From NCBI GenBank assembly GCA_003167215.1, contig PMTV01000047.1, positions 62,001 to 126,000 of the forward strand: a stretch of DNA of 64,000 nt, written 5' to 3'. Shown piece after piece: positions 12,137 to 28,676 of the stretch; within the stretch, counting starts at the first letter, position 1; each line of letters starts with the position of its first letter. The notes beneath the pieces were generated by a model. The model did not search any database and had not been told where the DNA came from. It saw nothing but the letters and a program-made list of their open reading frames with translations. The translations under genes and the position numbers were made by a program. Source of the DNA: Acidobacteriota bacterium. Its GTDB lineage: Bacteria; Acidobacteriota; Terriglobia; Acidiferrales; UBA7541.

Positions 12137-12272
12137 CCTTCGAATCTCCTCGAACAGCCTGCCGAACTTCTAACCTCTCTCTCGCCCCATCCTGTTTCTC
12201 TGCGGTAACACTTTGTTCACTCTGTATTCATCGTTCCGGGATATGATATGCGATTCCGTACGGATTTTTCAT

Positions 12273-13007
12273 ATGGTTACGAGTACGCCTGACATCCCGT
12301 CCACTACCGAACTTGCTCCAGTAAAGCAAGCAACCTCGAAGCGCTCATATCCCGGCGCTCTTGTGGTTGTGGAGGGCATTGACGGTTCCGGGAAGAGCAC
12401 CCAGCTCTACCTTCTGAAACGTTGGCTCGAAATCAGCGGCTATCGTACTCACTTCACCGAATGGAACTCGTCTCCGCTCGTGCGATCTGCCACGCGTCGC
12501 GGCAAACAGCGCCGTCTGCTCACACCGACAACATTTTCCCTCCTGCATGCAGCCGATTTCGCCGATCGCTGCGAACGCCAAATCATGCCGTTATTGCACG
12601 GCGGCTACCTGGTGCTTGCCGACCGTTACATTTATACGGCATTTGCCCGAGACGGCGCTCGCGGATGCTCGCCCCACTGGCTTCGGAATCTTTACAGTTT
12701 CGCCCCTACTCCTGACATCACCTTTTATTTCCGCGCTCCGCTCGACGTGGCCGTAAATCGCATCCTCGCCGGGCGCCCCAAGCTGAAATATTACGAGGCC
12801 GGAATGGACCTTGGAATCTCGCTGGATCGCTCGGAAAGCTTCCGCATTTTTCAGGAACGCATACTGAATAACTACGATCAGATGGTCGAAACCGATCATT
12901 TCGTCCTGATGGACGGCACCGTGCGCGTGAACAAACTCCAAAAAATGATGCGGCAGATTGTCGGGGAGAAAATTTCTCTCCAGCAATTCGCTCCCAAGAA
13001 AAAATGA
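12273..13007 (+). CDS. Thymidylate-kinase-like P-loop kinase, first of an overlapping pair
   Basis: 244 residues from the chosen ATG. The P-loop is GIDGSGKST (35-43), and the TMPK-type DRY motif is in VLADRYIYTAFARDG. The rest resembles thymidylate kinases (helical LID region with RILAGRPKLKYYEAG). The size is slightly above the usual 205-215 residues because of an N-terminal tail of about 27 residues. Upstream in-frame starts exist (ATG at 12243) and none has a convincing ribosome site, so the start is uncertain. The gene overlaps the next TMPK-like gene by 4 bp. A pair of TMPK paralogs beside PPK2, Ppx and CHAD is unlikely to be simple dTMP supply; a role in nucleotide or polyphosphate phosphotransfer is inferred. 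Confidence 0.8.
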   Translation: MVTSTPDIPSTTELAPVKQATSKRSYPGALVVVEGIDGSGKSTQLYLLKRWLEISGYRTHFTEWNSSPLVRSATRRGKQRRLLTPTTFSLLHAADFADRCERQIMPLLHGGYLVLADRYIYTAFARDGARGCSPHWLRNLYSFAPTPDITFYFRAPLDVAVNRILAGRPKLKYYEAGMDLGISLDRSESFRIFQERILNNYDQMVETDHFVLMDGTVRVNKLQKMMRQIVGEKISLQQFAPKKK

Positions 13008-13831
13008 AACGCTCCGACAAAAAGCCGCTGGCGTCGATCCCCGCGAACGGCCGCCCCGCGAAGAAGAGGTCGGCCAATGGCCGTGCAACTGTAGCGCCTC
13101 CTTCGCGTTTCTACGGGGCTCCCCTTCCCGGCGTGAAGCCTGAGGAATTGAGCGGAACGCTGGTCGTAATCGAGGGCACGGACGGCTCCGGCCGCTCGAC
13201 CCAGATTTCCCTCCTCACCGAATGGTTGGAATCCCAGGGATTCGCCGTGCAGACGATGGGGCTGCGCAGGTCCTATCTCGTGGGTGAAGACATCGACGCA
13301 CTCCTCGCCGAAAACGCAGTCACCCGCATGACCTTGGCACTGATGTACAGCACCGATTTTTTCGACCAACTCGAGCGCCGTATTCTTCCCGCCTTGCGCT
13401 CCGGCTTGATCGTTCTCGCGGACCGCTACATTTTCACGCTAATTGCCCGCGCCGCTGTCCGTGGCATTGCCCGCGACTATCTTCACGGGATTTATGAAAT
13501 CGCCCTCAGGCCCGACCTCACTTTTTGGCTGAATGTGCGCCCGGAAGTTGCGTTCGACCGTGAATTCAAGAAATCGCAAACGATCAGCTATTGGGAATCG
13601 GGACGCGACATGTCGCTGTCCAATGATTTGTTTCAATCCTTTATTCGCTATCAATCCATGATCAAACGCGAATTCGAGTATCTTTCGAAACGGCATGGCT
13701 TTCTCGAATTAGACGGCGAAAGCAGCGTCTCCAGCGTAAACCGGGTGCTACGCAAACGCATTGCCTCGCACCTGGGCATACGGAGCACGCAATACAAGCC
13801 TTCGCACGCTCTGTCTCACCTCTGGCGCTAG
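13004..13831 (+). CDS. Thymidylate-kinase-like protein with Arg in place of the P-loop Lys
   Basis: 275 residues. A basic, Pro-rich N-terminal tail of about 50 residues precedes a TMPK-like domain. The P-loop reads GTDGSGRST (58-66): the near-invariant Lys is Arg64. The DRY motif (VLADRYIFTLIARAA) is retained. The ATG overlaps the stop of the preceding paralog (ATGA), and Ppx/GppA follows 2 bp after its stop, so all are co-transcribed. The Lys-to-Arg change predicts weakened or absent kinase activity, suggesting a regulatory partner of the upstream paralog, perhaps as a heterodimer. That is inference; the substrate is unknown. Confidence 0.82.
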   Translation: MKRSDKKPLASIPANGRPAKKRSANGRATVAPPSRFYGAPLPGVKPEELSGTLVVIEGTDGSGRSTQISLLTEWLESQGFAVQTMGLRRSYLVGEDIDALLAENAVTRMTLALMYSTDFFDQLERRILPALRSGLIVLADRYIFTLIARAAVRGIARDYLHGIYEIALRPDLTFWLNVRPEVAFDREFKKSQTISYWESGRDMSLSNDLFQSFIRYQSMIKREFEYLSKRHGFLELDGESSVSSVNRVLRKRIASHLGIRSTQYKPSHALSHLWR

Positions 13832-13833
13832 AA

Positions 13834-15396
13834 GTGGCCGCCCCCGTTCAACTAGCCGCGATCGATGCCGGCTCCAATGCTATTCGGCTCGTTATTGCCC
13901 GCGCTACTTCTCCGCAGCATATCCAAATCCTCGACAATGAACGGGCCGCAGTCCGCCTGGGCCACAACGCCTTTACTCGCCGGTTGCTCGACGACGACAC
14001 CATCGCGCGCGCCGCGCGCGTCTTCCGCCAATTCCGCGACCGCATGGATGCTCATCAAGTCACCGCCTATCGCGCCGTGGCAACCGCCGCCGCTCGCGAG
14101 TCGCGCAACTATCGCAAACTCATGGACCGCGTCCGGCGAAAAGCAGGAATTGAGCTGGAAGTAATCAGCAGCGAAGAAGAGGCACAGCTGGTCTGCTCCG
14201 CCGTGAAGTGGGCCTTGGGCGACCGGCTCCAGCCGCGTTTGATTTTTGACCTTGGCGGAGGCAGTCTGGAATTAAATTTTTTTCAGCGCGGCGTGCTGGA
14301 ACATCGCATCGGGCTTCCCCTCGGCACCATACGTCTCATGGAGACGTATTCCATCAAGGGCGCCATCGACGAAGACGATGCAAATCGCCTTCGTCATCAT
14401 GTGCTGGCGATTCTTCGCAGCGCGCTCCCTTCGCCTCCCAGGCTCACCCGGTCCATTGCTGTTGCCTGCGGAGGAAACGCCGAAGCTCTCGTTCGAATCG
14501 CCCCGGGGCCCATGATTGAACGCGTTCCGTCCATGAATGTCCGCCTGCTGAAGGATCAGACTTGGCGAATGATAGCCCTCGACGTGCCCCACCGCATGCG
14601 AGTTTTCCGCGTGCGCGAAGACCGTGCCGAAGTCATGGGCATCGCCGCCATAATCATCACCACGCTCGCGAAATGGCTGGATCTGCGCACCATGCTCGTC
14701 CCCGGCGTCGGCGTGCGCGAAGGGATTCTGATTGACCTGGTCGCGGAGCAATACTCCGCCGGTTCTGCGTCCGAGGAAGAAAAAGGGCGGGCTGCCGAAA
14801 TGCGTGAGGGCACCTTATGGTTCGCCAGCCGCCTGAATTACAATCAAAATCATGCGGAGCAAGTCGCTCGGCTCGCTCTTTCGCTCTTCGACCAGCTCCG
14901 TCCGATTCATGAAATGGGAGCCGATCTGCGGCTCCTTCTGGAAATTGGCGCGCTGTTGCATGATGTGGGCCATTTCATTAATCGCAAAGCCCACCATCGA
15001 CACGGAGAATATCTGATCCGCAATGGAGATATCCCCGGTTTGCGCGGCTGGCGATGCGAAATGGTGGCTGCGCTCGTGCGCTACCATAATTCGAAATCAG
15101 AGCCTCAGCTCGAGCACTCGTCTTATGCCGCTCTGGACGGCCAGCACCGCCGGCAGGCTCGGCTGCTGACCTCGTTGCTGCGCATTGCCGAAAAACTCGA
15201 GTCCGAACACCAGCAGCGTGTAACGGGCGTGGACGTGCAGATTGCCGGGCGCAAAGCGATTTTTGTAATCCGCGCTGTTGACGGCACCCGTTTGGACTTG
15301 GCCGGACTCCAACGAAAAGCGGAGCTATTTGAGAAAGAATTTCATCTCAACGCGGAGTTTCGTCGCGCTCAGAAAAAAGAAAAAGAGGTGGCCTAA
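13834..15396 (+). CDS. Ppx/GppA-family exopolyphosphatase with C-terminal HD domain
   Basis: 520 residues. The N-terminal ASKHA phosphatase domain begins AAIDAGSNAIRLVIA (phosphate-1 loop) and contains the catalytic region ISSEEEAQLV and the phosphate-2 loop FDLGGGSLEL. The C-terminal half is an HD-type domain (ALLHDVGHFINRKAHHRHGEYLI). This is the long Ppx/GppA architecture of enzymes that hydrolyse polyphosphate ends or pppGpp. The GTG start lies 2 bp after the preceding stop. SixA follows after 3 bp, so it belongs to the TMPK-like pair - Ppx - SixA operon. Confidence 0.92.
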   Translation: MAAPVQLAAIDAGSNAIRLVIARATSPQHIQILDNERAAVRLGHNAFTRRLLDDDTIARAARVFRQFRDRMDAHQVTAYRAVATAAARESRNYRKLMDRVRRKAGIELEVISSEEEAQLVCSAVKWALGDRLQPRLIFDLGGGSLELNFFQRGVLEHRIGLPLGTIRLMETYSIKGAIDEDDANRLRHHVLAILRSALPSPPRLTRSIAVACGGNAEALVRIAPGPMIERVPSMNVRLLKDQTWRMIALDVPHRMRVFRVREDRAEVMGIAAIIITTLAKWLDLRTMLVPGVGVREGILIDLVAEQYSAGSASEEEKGRAAEMREGTLWFASRLNYNQNHAEQVARLALSLFDQLRPIHEMGADLRLLLEIGALLHDVGHFINRKAHHRHGEYLIRNGDIPGLRGWRCEMVAALVRYHNSKSEPQLEHSSYAALDGQHRRQARLLTSLLRIAEKLESEHQQRVTGVDVQIAGRKAIFVIRAVDGTRLDLAGLQRKAELFEKEFHLNAEFRRAQKKEKEVA

Positions 15397-15399
15397 ACT

Positions 15400-15894
15400 A
15401 TGATTCTCTACCTTGTGCGCCACGGCATTGCCGTGGACCCCAACGATCCAAAATCGCCTCCCGAGCCTGAGCGTCCGCTGACGGCCAAGGGTGTGCAGAA
15501 GACGCGCGCCGCCGCCCTCGGGCTCAGTGTCTTGGGCATCAAGCCGGACGTGATGATAACCAGCCCCTATGTCCGCGCCACGCAAACAGCTGAGATATTT
15601 GCGGAGACGCTTGGATTTTCGCCGGCAAAAATCCGCGTGCACGATGCCTTGAAACCCGCCGGCAATCCCGCGGAGATTGCCAAGGAAGTCATCAGCCTGC
15701 GCGCAAAGGAAGTAATGTGCTTCGGCCACGCCCCGCAGCTCGACCTCACGATTTCCTATCTTCTCGGCGCGCGCGGCGCGGTCACTGAGCTGAAAAAGGC
15801 CGGCGTTGCGTGTTTCGACCACACTGCCACGCATGGCAAATGGCTGCTTTGCTGGATTTTAACTCCAAAGGTCTTGCGTCAACTGGCGGAGTAA
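15400..15894 (+). CDS. sixA: Phosphohistidine phosphatase SixA (histidine phosphatase family)
   Basis: 164 residues starting with the RHG signature (LVRHGIAVDP) that holds the phospho-accepting His. ERPLTAKGVQKTR and the later FGHAPQLD block supply the second conserved Arg and His. SixA proteins dephosphorylate phosphohistidine in signalling proteins and the nitrogen PTS. Members of this family are often found beside CHAD and Ppx genes, as here. The 3' end overlaps the convergent CHAD gene by 16 bp. Confidence 0.9.
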   Translation: MILYLVRHGIAVDPNDPKSPPEPERPLTAKGVQKTRAAALGLSVLGIKPDVMITSPYVRATQTAEIFAETLGFSPAKIRVHDALKPAGNPAEIAKEVISLRAKEVMCFGHAPQLDLTISYLLGARGAVTELKKAGVACFDHTATHGKWLLCWILTPKVLRQLAE

Positions 15895-16784
15895 ACGCGT
15901 TGCAATTCTAGCGGCGACACCGTTTTGAGGTTGCGGCCCCATTCCAGCCCTTTGTGCCAGACTGCCCAGGACGAGTCCTTGTTTGCCGTCTTCTCGCGGA
16001 ATTCTTCCAGACGAATCTTGCGTTCCTTTTCAATTTCTTGTATCCACTTCGCTACGATTTCGGGACTGAGTCCGATCGCCTGTTTTCTGATTTGAAGCCG
16101 CAGCACATCCAGGTCGTGAACTTCTCCAAGCATATCCTGCATGCCTTTCAGTTCCTTGCTCCATTGAGGGTAGCGCTGCGGCAGAAAATTCTCCAGGATG
16201 TATCGGAACCCTTTGAGCCCGATTCGCAGCCGGTGCCAGGCCGCTCCGCTGCGAAGCTTTCGCGCCTGGTGATACAGGTTTACCGCTTCATTCAATTGCG
16301 CCAGGGCCAGCCGTTGAAAGACAACACTTTCCACGGGAAAAAATTCAGCTTTTGCCGGAAATTTGCGCGACCATTTCTTCCAACTCTTGCGGTCAAACTG
16401 GCGCAGAGCTTTCTCCGCCTTTTTTTTCTGCCCTAGCTCCTGCTGGCTCAGCACTTTCAACATGCGGCCGCGAACGGGGTCTTTCGCCGTACCGAACTTT
16501 CTCACCCATTGCTTCGCTACCTGTGTGTCTCTAAGCTCGCCCAGAGCCTGGAATAAATCGCGCGTCACCTTCTTGAGCTTCTTCCAGCCCGGGCCTGGGT
16601 TCACTTCGCTTACAGCGTCAGCCATAGCTCGGCAGCGTCGCAGCGCTACGCGCAGATCGTGGACGTTATCCGCGTCCCAGTCATCCTGAACTTTGTCCGC
16701 CATCTCCGAAACGCGGTTCATCCAAAGCTCAAGGCCGACGCGCTTCACTGGAATTGTCGTAGGCAAGGTAATTGTAAGTGTCAC
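15879..16784 (-). CDS. CHAD-domain protein (predicted polyphosphate binding)
   Basis: 301 residues made up almost entirely of an alpha-helical CHAD domain, with the signature HDLRVALRRCRAMADAV (conserved His plus Arg ladder) and a second basic repeat (WHRLRIGLKGFRYILENF). CHAD domains bind polyphosphate through these basic surfaces. The protein is very rich in Lys and Arg. The gene is convergent with and overlaps sixA, and is near PPK2 and Ppx. The GTG start at 16784 has no clear ribosome site; an ATG at 16721 is possible but would remove residues preceding the domain. Confidence 0.88.
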   Translation of the reverse strand: MTLTITLPTTIPVKRVGLELWMNRVSEMADKVQDDWDADNVHDLRVALRRCRAMADAVSEVNPGPGWKKLKKVTRDLFQALGELRDTQVAKQWVRKFGTAKDPVRGRMLKVLSQQELGQKKKAEKALRQFDRKSWKKWSRKFPAKAEFFPVESVVFQRLALAQLNEAVNLYHQARKLRSGAAWHRLRIGLKGFRYILENFLPQRYPQWSKELKGMQDMLGEVHDLDVLRLQIRKQAIGLSPEIVAKWIQEIEKERKIRLEEFREKTANKDSSWAVWHKGLEWGRNLKTVSPLELQRVYSAS

Positions 16785-19913: not shown

Positions 19914-20744
19914 ATGAACTACAAGACCACAGCGCCCGCGCTCCTATTCTTGCTTTTAGCGTCCGGCTCAGGTGCGGAATTGCACACAAAAAGTACCACT
20001 GGCACTGTCGTGGTTATCGGCTGGTCGCAAACCGCAATTGTCATCGCTGTTGACAGTCGAGGGTTCGACGACAAGGATAAATATCGCGACGATATTTGCA
20101 AGATCGTGAGACTCGATGACCATTCGGTCTTCACTGCTGCCGGGAATATTATTCACGCTCGTGCTGGCCGAGCGCTCTGGAATGCACAGGCAGAAGCTTC
20201 TACCGCTTTCAAAGAAGCACAAAGGACCGCGGCCCCGCGGCTTCTGAAAAGTGCGGCGAAAGATTGGGGCGATCACATGGTTGCGGCCATCAACCAGGCT
20301 CTCGCGGTCGATCCTTCGGGTTCCCAGCTGATGCTGGAGAACAATGTTTTCCTAACCGGCGTGTTCATAGGTTTCGAAAACGGTTCCACGGCGATGTATC
20401 AGGCGGAAATCGTATTCGACCCTGGCACTCGACAGGCCAGACAGAACTTCTATATCGAGCGCCATGGGCATACCGTTCAATTTGCCGCATTGGGCCGAAG
20501 CGAAATCGTTACCGAAGTCGTCGCGGACAAAACTCATTTTGCACGAGTTGAGCAGCGGAAGTGGGCCGCGGCGGAACGAAATATTCCCTTCCGGGACCGG
20601 GATGTGCGCTGGGCCATCCGCTTGGTCCAACTCACAATGGAGTACGACCCCAAGAAGGCTGATGTGGGGGGCCCCATCGACGCACTTGAAATTACACGCA
20701 GAGGAATTCGATGGGCTGAGCGCAAACCAGAATGCAATCCCTAG
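19914..20744 (+). CDS. Secreted proteasome-like Ntn hydrolase (predicted)
   Basis: 276 residues. A signal peptide (hydrophobic core about 7-16, Ala-Ser-Gly-Ser-Gly-Ala near 16-21) precedes a sequence matching the proteasome beta-subunit fold. Taking Thr31 as residue 1, Asp47 is residue 17, Lys63 is residue 33 and Gly77 is residue 47, exactly the spacing of the T1-D17-K33 catalytic set and the oxyanion Gly47 of proteasome and HslV subunits. Thr31 is preceded by Gly30, like the Gly-Thr junction that proteasome precursors cut. Later blocks (VFLTGVFIGFENGSTAMYQAEIVFDPG and GGPIDALEITRRGIRW) fit the second half of the fold. No ATPase partner is near. The substrate is unknown and activity is unproven. 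Confidence 0.7.
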   Translation: MNYKTTAPALLFLLLASGSGAELHTKSTTGTVVVIGWSQTAIVIAVDSRGFDDKDKYRDDICKIVRLDDHSVFTAAGNIIHARAGRALWNAQAEASTAFKEAQRTAAPRLLKSAAKDWGDHMVAAINQALAVDPSGSQLMLENNVFLTGVFIGFENGSTAMYQAEIVFDPGTRQARQNFYIERHGHTVQFAALGRSEIVTEVVADKTHFARVEQRKWAAAERNIPFRDRDVRWAIRLVQLTMEYDPKKADVGGPIDALEITRRGIRWAERKPECNP

Positions 20745-25231: not shown

Positions 25232-26227
25232 ATGCCTTCAGCCCAACAAATAGTCGCATTGATAAAGAGCCACGTTAGAGGCGATGAAGAACGATTTTAC
25301 TCCCTTGTGCTGCAGCTTGCGGCAGAAGAAGCTAAAAGGGGGCACGCCGTCGTCGCCGAGCAGCTGCGCGAGTTGCTAGAACAGGCAAAATCACCGAGGC
25401 CGCGAGTTGTTTATTCGCATGGCCCGGTGCCTGTGCCATCCGTGAGGAGCGACCTAGCAACCATTCTCTCCGTTCATTACCCAAAAACTCTACTGTCCAA
25501 TATGGTGCTGGATGACGATCTAAAGACTCGCCTCAGCCGCATTGTTCATGAACAACGGCAGAGGGGGCGCTTGAAGAGTCATGGTCTGAATGCCCGCCGC
25601 AAACTTCTGCTCACCGGGCCGCCAGGCACTGGAAAAACGATGACCGCAAGCGCCCTTGCTGGTGAATTGGACCTCCCTCTTTTCTCGGTGTTATTGCATG
25701 GAATTCTCACGAAATTCATGGGTGAGGCTGCGGCCAAGCTGCGTTTGATCTTTGACGCTATGATAGAAATGCGCGGTGTCTACCTTTTCGATGAAATCGA
25801 TGCACTAGGCGCAAAGCGAGACTCAGATAACGACGTCGGCGAAGCGCGGCGGATTCTCAATTCCTTCCTCCAGTTCTTGGAGCAGGATCACAGCGACGCG
25901 ATAATCGTGGCAACGACTAATCACGAATCGCTGCTCGACCGAGCCCTTTTTCGAAGATTTCAAGCCATTTTGAAGTACCAGCTACCATCAGCAGCCTTGA
26001 CGATCGAAGCCTTGCAGATGCGTCTACAAAGCTTTGATGTTTCCGACGTGGACTGGCAAACGACGGCGATTGAGGCGCGAGGATTGAGTCATGCAGACAT
26101 CATGGCTGCAGCCGAAGATGCGGCGCGCAATGCGATCCTAGACCGGGGCCCGAAGATTCTTGATTCAGATCTGCATGGTGCCATCGCCGCCCGGCGAAAT
26201 CAGTCGCATGTAGATTCAAATGGCTGA
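25232..26227 (+). CDS. ietA: AAA ATPase, IetA-like component of a protease defence pair
   Basis: 331 residues. Helical N-terminal region (1-120), then an AAA domain with Walker A GPPGTGKT (129-136), Walker B LFDEID (185-190), and sensor-type ATTNHESLLDRALFRRF. A C-terminal helical lid follows. The gene overlaps the downstream subtilisin gene by 8 bp. Paired AAA ATPase and S8 protease genes are known as IetAS, first described as a plasmid stability/incompatibility module of an Agrobacterium Ti plasmid and later as an anti-phage system. By analogy the ATPase restrains or loads the protease. The IetA name rests on architecture and gene pairing only. Confidence 0.8.
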   Translation: MPSAQQIVALIKSHVRGDEERFYSLVLQLAAEEAKRGHAVVAEQLRELLEQAKSPRPRVVYSHGPVPVPSVRSDLATILSVHYPKTLLSNMVLDDDLKTRLSRIVHEQRQRGRLKSHGLNARRKLLLTGPPGTGKTMTASALAGELDLPLFSVLLHGILTKFMGEAAAKLRLIFDAMIEMRGVYLFDEIDALGAKRDSDNDVGEARRILNSFLQFLEQDHSDAIIVATTNHESLLDRALFRRFQAILKYQLPSAALTIEALQMRLQSFDVSDVDWQTTAIEARGLSHADIMAAAEDAARNAILDRGPKILDSDLHGAIAARRNQSHVDSNG

Positions 26228-28676
26228 CGGACAGTTCCCGCATCTCATTCTTCAAAACATCGCGCGTAGTGAGCGTTTCGCGCGCCCCGGCACGGGAGGC
26301 TCCAAGCATTTTCCATCTGTCGTGCCGGACAGAGAAGCGCATGCGCAGATGCTCTTGCGGCAACTACGCGCCTCTCAGGATGAAGCCAGTCATAATGTGG
26401 CACGACGTGCGGACATCTTGCCGGAAAGCCAAAACGGTATCTACCTCACTATCGAAGGTCGCCCGCAGGAACCACTTCTAACTAAGAAATTAGAGAGAAA
26501 AAAGGGGAATATCGAACTGCTGGCCGTGAAACAAGAAGCAGATCGAACGACGGCGACAGTATTTGTTCCAGAGACGGCGAGAGGCTTCTTCACAAAGACG
26601 ATTGAGGATTACCGGATAAGAAATGAGCCGCGGGCGTTACAGCCCGAAGCCAAGAACCGTAGACTCATAGACGGCATCGGTGACATTCGGTTGGCAGCGC
26701 TGCGCGACCTATGGATCGATGATCCCGATATGTTCCCTGAGCCCAGAGCGGCGGTTGATTGGGAGGTCTGGCTTCGTCCGACCGCGACAGACAGATTCCG
26801 GGTTGCGGCGATGGAAGCAGGAATTGTATTTGGATCCCACCCGCTGGTCTTTCCCGAGGATGTTGCGTTATTCGTCGTGGCGTCGGCCGAGGCACTGGCG
26901 TCCCTGAATGAATTGACACTCAGCATTTCACGTTTGGCTCGCGCAAAGCGGATGACGAGCTTCTACCCAGCTACGCTAGAGGAGCAGGCCTGGCAAATGG
27001 ATAATTTGCTCGCGCGGCTTCACGCTCCCGAAGGTGGCCAGACCTCACTCTGCATTTTAGATACAGGCGTCAACAGAGAGCATCGCCTATTGGCACCGAT
27101 TGTCGGAGCAGGGGACTGTCATGCTTACCGCGATGAATGGCGTTCCGAGGATCACGACGGACACGGCACGCAAATGGCAGGGATATGCGGCTATGGTGAT
27201 TTAACCAACGCAATGAGGAGCGAGGAACGCATATCGGTTCCCTTCCGTATAGAATCAGTTAAAATCTTTCCGCCCGTCGGCAGTAATCCCCACGAACTGC
27301 TCGGTGCGATCACGGCAGGCGGGGTTGCACGAGCCGAGTTAGCGCAGCCTGATCGTAACCGTCTTTTCTGCTTGGCTACCTCTACGGATCAAGACTCCCC
27401 TCACCGGGGGAAACCAACTTCCTGGTCTGCGGAGCTGGACCAGCTGTGTTTTGGGTCGGATGTAGCACCTCGAGCCGGCCGGCTTTTCTGTGTTGCTGCG
27501 GGCAACATACGCGAGCCTCTTCGACTGCGGCACGCGGATTATCCTGAATTGAATGACCTCAACGAAATCGAGTCTCCAGGGCATGCTTGGAATGTGCTAA
27601 CAATTGGAGGCATTACCGAACTAACGGAAATCAATGACCCCACCCATGCCGGTTGGGTATCGTTCGCAAGTCGCGGTGATCTGTGCCCTGTATCCCGGAC
27701 TGCCACTTGGAATGATTCATGGCCGATTAAGCCTGACATCGTTATGGAGGGAGGTAATCTTGGCGTTGATCCTACAGACGGCTTAGGATACGGCTTTCCT
27801 GAGGTCAGATTGCTGACGACCTCTCGAGAATATCCACAGTCTCCGTTCGACCAGTTCGGCGATACGAGTGCCGCGGCCGCTAACGCGGCTCGATTATGCG
27901 CCCTGGTACAGAGCGAATACCCCGCTCTGTGGCCCGAGACCATACGAGCTCTTGTCGTGGATTCGGCGGCCTGGAACCAATCCATGCTAGGCCACCTGCC
28001 GGCAAACCCAGTGAAAGCCGACCACGGACTATTGCTGAAGCGATATGGTTTCGGAGTGCCCGATGTTGGACGTGCACTCTTCAGCGGTCGCAACACGCTG
28101 ACTCTCATCGTGCAGGACACAATTCAGCCATATCTGAAAGTAGCCAAGAAAAAACCCGTCTTGAATGAGTTGAAACTCTTCACTTTACCCTGGCCTCGCC
28201 AGCAATTGCTCGAACTCGAGAACACACAAGTGCAGATGCGCGTAACCCTTTCCTATTTTATCGAGCCAAACCCCGCTGAGAGCGCGCGTAATCAAAAGTC
28301 GCGGTATTGTTCTCATGGGCTTCGATTCGCGGTCATGTTGCCAGATGAAGACCTCAATGACTTCCGAAGACGTGTGAATAAAGCCTCCCGGGAAGAAGGC
28401 AATCGGCGCTATACACAGGATACGGAATGGACGCTGGGGAGCGACCTTCGTGATCGCGGGTCTCTTCATTCCGACTTATGGCGCGGGCACGCCTCCAATC
28501 TCGCGCGACGGGGAGCCGTAGCCGTCTTTCCAGTATCGGGTTGGTGGAAAGAACGCGAGCAACTGGAGCGGTATCACAGGACTACGCGATTCTCGCTAGT
28601 AGTTAATATCCACACGCCTCCGACTGAAATAGACATTTACACACCCGTTGCGAACCAGATAGGAATTCAACTCTGA
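26220..28676 (+). CDS. ietS: S8 subtilisin-family protease, IetS-like component
   Basis: 818 residues. A long N-terminal region (1-270) of unknown fold precedes the subtilase domain. The triad is complete: D281 in CILDTGVN, H315 in HDGHGTQMAGI and S550 in FGDTSAAAANAARL. A C-terminal beta-rich region (about 610-818) follows. There is no signal peptide, so it acts in the cytoplasm, as expected for a toxic effector protease. The ATG lies inside the end of the ATPase gene, indicating coupled translation. Codon use looks less GC-biased than in neighbouring chromosomal genes, consistent with horizontal transfer (impression, not computed). Confidence 0.82.
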   Translation: MADGQFPHLILQNIARSERFARPGTGGSKHFPSVVPDREAHAQMLLRQLRASQDEASHNVARRADILPESQNGIYLTIEGRPQEPLLTKKLERKKGNIELLAVKQEADRTTATVFVPETARGFFTKTIEDYRIRNEPRALQPEAKNRRLIDGIGDIRLAALRDLWIDDPDMFPEPRAAVDWEVWLRPTATDRFRVAAMEAGIVFGSHPLVFPEDVALFVVASAEALASLNELTLSISRLARAKRMTSFYPATLEEQAWQMDNLLARLHAPEGGQTSLCILDTGVNREHRLLAPIVGAGDCHAYRDEWRSEDHDGHGTQMAGICGYGDLTNAMRSEERISVPFRIESVKIFPPVGSNPHELLGAITAGGVARAELAQPDRNRLFCLATSTDQDSPHRGKPTSWSAELDQLCFGSDVAPRAGRLFCVAAGNIREPLRLRHADYPELNDLNEIESPGHAWNVLTIGGITELTEINDPTHAGWVSFASRGDLCPVSRTATWNDSWPIKPDIVMEGGNLGVDPTDGLGYGFPEVRLLTTSREYPQSPFDQFGDTSAAAANAARLCALVQSEYPALWPETIRALVVDSAAWNQSMLGHLPANPVKADHGLLLKRYGFGVPDVGRALFSGRNTLTLIVQDTIQPYLKVAKKKPVLNELKLFTLPWPRQQLLELENTQVQMRVTLSYFIEPNPAESARNQKSRYCSHGLRFAVMLPDEDLNDFRRRVNKASREEGNRRYTQDTEWTLGSDLRDRGSLHSDLWRGHASNLARRGAVAVFPVSGWWKEREQLERYHRTTRFSLVVNIHTPPTEIDIYTPVANQIGIQL

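Follow-up and report, generated by a model that had tools for sequence, protein, structure and literature searches.

Proteasome-like enzymes are treated in the open-access literature as cytoplasmic, most of them in closed rings. One gene in the window analysed here, a 64,000-nucleotide stretch of contig PMTV01000047.1 from a soil bacterium of the Acidobacteriota, raises the question of whether a member of this family can act outside the cytoplasm, as the first-pass annotation had placed the catalytic spacing of active proteasome subunits behind a signal peptide and read the product as a self-processing, secreted Ntn hydrolase. The gene, whose product we refer to as P0001, has the following parts:

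19914..20744, + strand: gene for the exported proteasome-like Ntn hydrolase P0001, as predicted, 276 aa (ORF translation, homologs, dN/dS < 1)
19914..19976, + strand: predicted Sec signal peptide, residues 1-21, MNYKTTAPALLFLLLASGSGA, with a probable cut after Ala21 (hydropathy, (-3,-1) rule)
19977..20003, + strand: nine-residue pro-stretch ELHTKSTTG, ending in Gly(-1) (Gly(-1) in 14/14 members of the window's clade)
20004..20006, + strand: Thr31, equivalent to Thr1, predicted N-terminal nucleophile (Thr 44/48, Ser 3/48; first model residue aligned with that of mature 20S beta)
20052..20054, + strand: Asp47, equivalent to Asp17 (Asp 47/48, Glu 1/48)
20097..20099, + strand: Cys62, directly before Lys33, predicted disulfide partner of Cys274 (Cys 45/48)
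20100..20102, + strand: Lys63, equivalent to Lys33, predicted catalytic lysine (48/48)
20142..20144, + strand: Gly77, equivalent to Gly47, predicted oxyanion-hole glycine (44/48)
20664..20714, + strand: VGGPID...W motif, counterpart of the proteasome S169-G-G strand pair (S10-S11) (alignments to proteasome beta and cytosolic PMI-like proteins)
20733..20735, + strand: Cys274, C-terminal cysteine (42/48)

Catalytic spacing and its conservation

In the translation of 19914-20744, an N-terminal hydrophobic segment ending ...LLLASGSGA is followed by ELHTKSTTG and then by T31VVVIGWSQTAIVIAVDSRG, which bears out both the Gly30-Thr31 junction after the signal peptide and the T1-D17-K33-G47 spacing (Thr31, Asp47, Lys63 and Gly77) that had been claimed from the sequence. 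The gene is present in single copy in a host genome of 3.78 Mb, to which the closest public genome is L001, an Acidobacteria palsa MAG, and the only other PF00227-type proteins of the host are HslV (L033) and a second, non-HslV protein (L034:1090-2076) of 328 aa that scores 27 bits, above the cut-off, and has a C-terminal extension.

Within a greedy, non-overlapping set of window ORFs of at least 100 aa, the T+16D+32K+46G pattern occurs in P0001 only. When the P0001 protein was shuffled 200,000 times, the spacing arose anywhere in 0.3% of the shuffles, a rate that gives some room to its being a coincidence in an unrelated secreted protein, and arose together with Gly(-1) within the first 60 residues in 0.0055%. 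By itself the spacing would be suggestive; the reading becomes firm because the spacing is conserved across relatives that are 20-30% identical. Relatives at this distance have in common G(-1) or A(-1), T1, D17, S18, C32, K33 and G47, and also keep the VGG/VGP-ID strand, the Trp and the final Cys, while relatives of 70-87% identity keep all of these features. Among 48 aligned relatives, position 1 is Thr in 44, Ser in three and Ala in one (L109, whose Thr sits one residue downstream); position 17 is Asp in 47 and Glu in one, position 33 is Lys throughout, and position 47 is Gly in 44, with Cys at position 32 in 45 and at position 274 in 42. The first-pass annotation had made its reading depend on conservation of Thr31, Asp47 and Lys63, and this was found (Thr/Ser 47/48, Asp 47/48, Lys 48/48). 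Conservation across 48 divergent relatives, with the profile matches to PDB proteasomes and the fold match described below, refutes coincidence, to which we assign a negligible probability.

The gene is kept by purifying selection, because dN/dS is 0.35 against the L001 copy (87% identity) and 0.10 against the 70% identical relative L006, the latter at a dS of 1.93 that is near saturation. Against L001 the gene has a dS of 0.20 at 87% identity, compared with about 0.11 and 96-98% for its neighbours, which indicates faster divergence between two close genomes. Copies in two other genomes (L007/L012 in G458 and L069 in G585) are split between frames and are either decayed genes or assembly faults; that of G458 contains undetermined bases.

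Fold and predicted export

The homology of P0001 to the proteasome-like family is detectable at the profile level only. P0001 alone matched Pfam Proteasome with an E of 0.083, below the cut-off, and found no match in NCBIfam, and curated HslV models gave weak matches in one or two of 42 relatives (best E 0.0018). A profile of eight relatives retrieved proteasome chains from the PDB at an E of 3.7e-4, and one of 42 relatives, at a best E of 2.5e-5, retrieved chains of HslV, BPH and the 20S proteasome (alpha and beta); its T1 column coincided with the first residue of mature HslV, beta2 and BPH. Comparison by hhalign matched the family to Acidobacteriota HslV at 94.6% (E 7e-8), with T1, D17 and K33 in register, and to cytosolic proteins with a VGGPID...W..RK end at 98.0% and 95.5%.

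A first AlphaFold model, built from two near-identical rows, was poor (pLDDT 41.9). The second was built for the mature protein from an alignment of 24 rows comprising P0001, the L001 relative and, from viral contigs, one PMI-like protein and three exported members, together with PMI-like fragments that were trimmed, as MAFFT split the longer ones; it reached a pLDDT of 75.8 and a pTM of 0.75. Its elements run S1-S2-S3-S4-H1-H2-S5..S9-H3-H4-S10-S11, which is the proteasome order, with H1 at 52-75, H2 at 81-102 and S3 and S4 adjacent. Foldseek against the PDB gave a best E of 1.3e-8, all of the matches listed being to the 20S proteasome, and VIA-align superposed 182 residues on 20S beta (Z 17.7, rmsd 3.2), let the model start on the first mature residue of the beta5 chains, and scored Anbu (5lox) at Z 16.9. 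The structure prediction thus returned the proteasome Ntn sandwich that the first-pass annotation had anticipated. The model and fold search back the sequence result and are not fully independent of it, since proteasome-like rows were in the alignment. P0001 has the fold (S1-S11 with H1-H4) and the T1/S1-D17-K33-G47 residues that characterise the proteasome-like family.

Signal peptides were scored by hydropathy and the (-3,-1) rule rather than by a dedicated predictor. This revealed a signal-peptide-like hydrophobic core upstream of T1 in 43 of the 48 relatives. All 43 have a Cys before K33 and 42 have a C-terminal Cys, the exception being the split ORF of L069, whose second half carries one. 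Both cysteines are absent from the three clearly signal-less members (L055, L056 and L114), and a Cys before K33 was found in 0/65 cytosolic PMI-like proteins and 0/10 HslV; this coupling is uncorrected for relatedness and includes only three negatives inside the family. As the cysteine pair goes with the signal peptide, its simplest reading suggests an extracytoplasmic disulfide. Export of most family members is supported by the signal-peptide-like N-termini and the associated cysteines, as is the secretion claimed for P0001 itself.

It could be argued instead that the start was called in the wrong place, or that the hydrophobic N-terminus is a signal anchor that is never cleaved, and that the protein is cytoplasmic like other proteasome homologs, given how the signal peptides were scored and that three members are signal-less. 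Behind an uncleaved anchor T1 would stay blocked, however, and relatives carry an AxA site exactly before T1; the cysteine pair moreover accompanies the signal peptide, and cytosolic relatives have no Cys before K33. We consider a cytoplasmic protein very improbable and proceed with export.

Predicted release of Thr1, genomic context and proposed function

Two layouts precede T1 in the family. The window's clade comprises 14 members (tree support 100/96), all with Gly(-1) and with T1 lying 10-22 residues beyond the hydrophobic core. Ala(-1) occurs in none of these 14 versus 21 of the 29 other signal-bearing members (Fisher p 6e-6), and the core-to-T1 gap also differs between the clade and the rest (Mann-Whitney p 4e-6), both p-values ignoring shared ancestry. 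Members with Ala(-1) have a median of seven residues from core to T1, and outside the window's clade the (-3,-1) rule is satisfied exactly before T1 in 25 of 29 signal-bearing members (for example HASSARA↓TTIVV, PVWA↓TTVIA and SAFA↓TTIIA, with the arrow before T1). Because the site lies directly before T1, signal peptidase alone would leave an N-terminal Thr1 in most members outside the clade. A single origin of A(-1) or of G(-1) was considered and set aside, as the tree does not back one change.

Proteasome beta subunits undergo autolysis at Gly(-1). The self-processing proposed in the first-pass annotation is plausible for the window's clade, where Gly(-1) is invariant, and does not extend to the rest of the family, in most of which T1 is apparently freed by signal peptidase. 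P0001 might also mature without autocatalysis, signal peptidase cutting at Ala21-Glu22 and another extracytoplasmic protease trimming to Thr31. Signal peptidase alone seems to free T1 in most other members, so autolysis would not be required family-wide; the invariance of Gly(-1) in 14/14 clade members, as at the proteasome beta autolysis site, speaks against such trimming, and we regard it as unlikely. Autocatalytic release remains our preferred reading for the window's clade.

Strong matches are patchily distributed, with about 34 of 329 sampled genomes in the host's own class and 9/162 and 9/193 in two other classes of the phylum. The neighbours of the P0001 gene encode urate oxidase, an HD-domain response regulator and a deaminase. 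The urate oxidase/deaminase neighbourhood is kept in near relatives only and is absent in distant ones, so gene context gives no function, and a role in a purine pathway was not inferred. No AAA+ partner of the exported family was found in the gene neighbourhoods.

Several other features of these regions were recorded. In L001 about 2 kb (L001:2971-4950) separate urate oxidase from the P0001 relative, compared with 100 bp in the window, and encode an exported protein as well as a metallopeptidase-like ORF with HELCHGLGPH, which may together be one gap-broken gene. Elsewhere in the window, a tandem pair of Thymidylate_kin (PF02223) proteins that share about 34% identity is followed by Ppx/GppA, a histidine phosphatase and a CHAD protein (12213-16784), which looks like a polyphosphate-handling cluster, and an AAA ATPase gene overlaps an S8 subtilase-family gene by 8 bases to form a two-gene pair (25232-28676).

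No relatives were found on plasmids or in named phages. In viral contigs, scanning with protein patterns of P0001, L024, A3 and A4 returned no match, but scanning with a DNA motif turned up further exported members. Two IMG/VR contigs, both temperate-phage-like, carry exported proteasome-like genes (L245:6914-7639 and L246:10012-10824) near a KilA-N gene and an integrase (Phage_integrase with Arm-DNA-bind_5/SAM_5), and their products begin TCIIV/TCIVI directly after the signal peptide. The vicinity of a phage integrase is the usual place for cargo genes. A short exported protein at L249:7226-7654 has the C-terminal VGGPID...W...C half only, without T1, D17 and K33, and the matches listed for viral and proviral contigs (L125-L251) include many MTAEIAVLNK... 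PMI-like homologs of about 430 aa.

The fold, the homology, the conserved residues and the signal-peptide-like N-terminus coupled to the cysteines are computed results. Building on them, we propose that P0001 is quite probably a Sec-exported, proteasome-like Ntn hydrolase that is matured to Thr31, stabilised by a disulfide and cleaves amide bonds. The Sec system would move the protein out of the cytoplasm, into the periplasm or the medium, with signal peptidase predicted to remove residues 1-21. The remaining nine residues would then be cut at Gly30-Thr31, most likely autocatalytically as in proteasome beta. The freed Thr31 would be the nucleophile, and Asp47, Lys63 and Gly77 would take the parts that their counterparts have in the 20S active site. 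A Cys62-Cys274 disulfide probably stabilises the core outside the cytoplasm. The mature enzyme may act as a monomer or small oligomer, hydrolysing peptide or other amide bonds; unfolded or small substrates and the lack of a large assembly are probable because ATP and an AAA+ partner are absent outside the cytoplasm. As Ser169 is Val in the exported family, the accessory hydrogen-bond network would differ from that of the proteasome.

The same fold and active site could also belong to a more specific enzyme, either a connectase-like transpeptidase/ligase or an amidase that acts on a cell-wall peptide or on a small molecule outside the cell. Connectase is a precedent for a monomeric proteasome-like ligase; it is without H1-H2, and two helices are inserted between its S3 and S4 (PMC8665760). 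The P0001 model, unlike connectase, has H1-H2 and no S3-S4 insertion. That neither an AAA+ partner nor a conserved neighbourhood was found, and that Ser169 is not conserved, fit a specific enzyme, which we hold to be possible although doubtful. Returning to the exported hydrolase, we lean slightly towards a broader proposal, in which the family is an undescribed extracytoplasmic proteasome branch: the signal peptide would replace the propeptide, signal peptidase would activate most members, the window's clade would add an autocatalytic Gly-Thr pro-stretch, the disulfide would replace ring assembly, and some copies would reside in temperate phages.

If an exported branch is real, the proteasome active site is able to function where conditions are oxidising and ATP is absent, and the family would offer a simple single-gene model for Thr1 release and for ring-free function of the fold. 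The occurrence of signal peptidase and autolysis layouts in one family would furthermore provide a direct evolutionary test of the origin of Ntn maturation.

Comparison with known proteasome-like systems

The first-pass annotation listed 20S, HslV, Anbu and BPH as known relatives, which is correct and incomplete, as connectase and 22 further proteasome-like families have already been described (PMC8665760). The main text of that paper mentions neither an exported or secreted branch nor Acidobacteria, and no description of an exported proteasome homolog was found in the open-access literature. Within that literature, the impression that no such family had been described holds for the exported branch and not for the fold and superfamily, which are known (PMC8665760).

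P0001 shares with the 20S proteasome beta subunit (MEROPS T1; PF00227) the fold (Z 17.7), T1-D17-K33-G47 and the C-terminal GG strand motif, and the window's clade also shares Gly(-1) before T1. The two differ in that the signal peptide and Cys62/Cys274 are found in P0001, Val251 aligns with the accessory catalytic Ser169 (SGG), and identity is 11-18%; an alpha subunit or ATPase partner for P0001 was not seen. HslV stays in register for 96 N-terminal columns (hhalign 94.6%), including T1, D17 and K33, but is a cytosolic protein of about 175 aa that works with HslU, and the host genome has a separate HslV (L033). More generally, 20S beta, HslV, Anbu and BPH are cytoplasmic and have no signal peptide, whereas P0001 has a signal-peptide-like N-terminus. 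Anbu shares the fold (5lox, Z 16.9) and T1-D17-K33 and has a long C-terminal helix, H5 (PMC8665760); it follows S11, whereas the P0001 model ends seven residues past the last strand. Connectase resembles P0001 in being proteasome-like, possibly monomeric and encoded at a single-gene locus, but its structural traits are absent from the P0001 model, in which H1 and H2 are present and S3 and S4 adjacent.

The closest C-terminal likeness is to the cytosolic PMI-like homologs, which share VGGPID...W..RK (98.0% and 95.5%), T1/S1, D17 and K33. By inference, the MTAEIAVLNK... proteins of about 430 aa and the MSLVI... proteins of about 240 aa correspond to the PMI clusters of Fuchs et al. 2021. Unlike P0001, they start Met-T1/S1, have no signal peptide and lack a Cys before K33 (0/65), and those of about 430 aa carry a large insertion that the P0001 model does not have. 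P0001 lacks features that define 20S beta subunits, HslV, Anbu, connectase and PMI proteins, and it belongs to none of these groups. Taken together, our analysis confirms the original observation and broadens it: the proteasome-like family has a conserved branch that is apparently exported.
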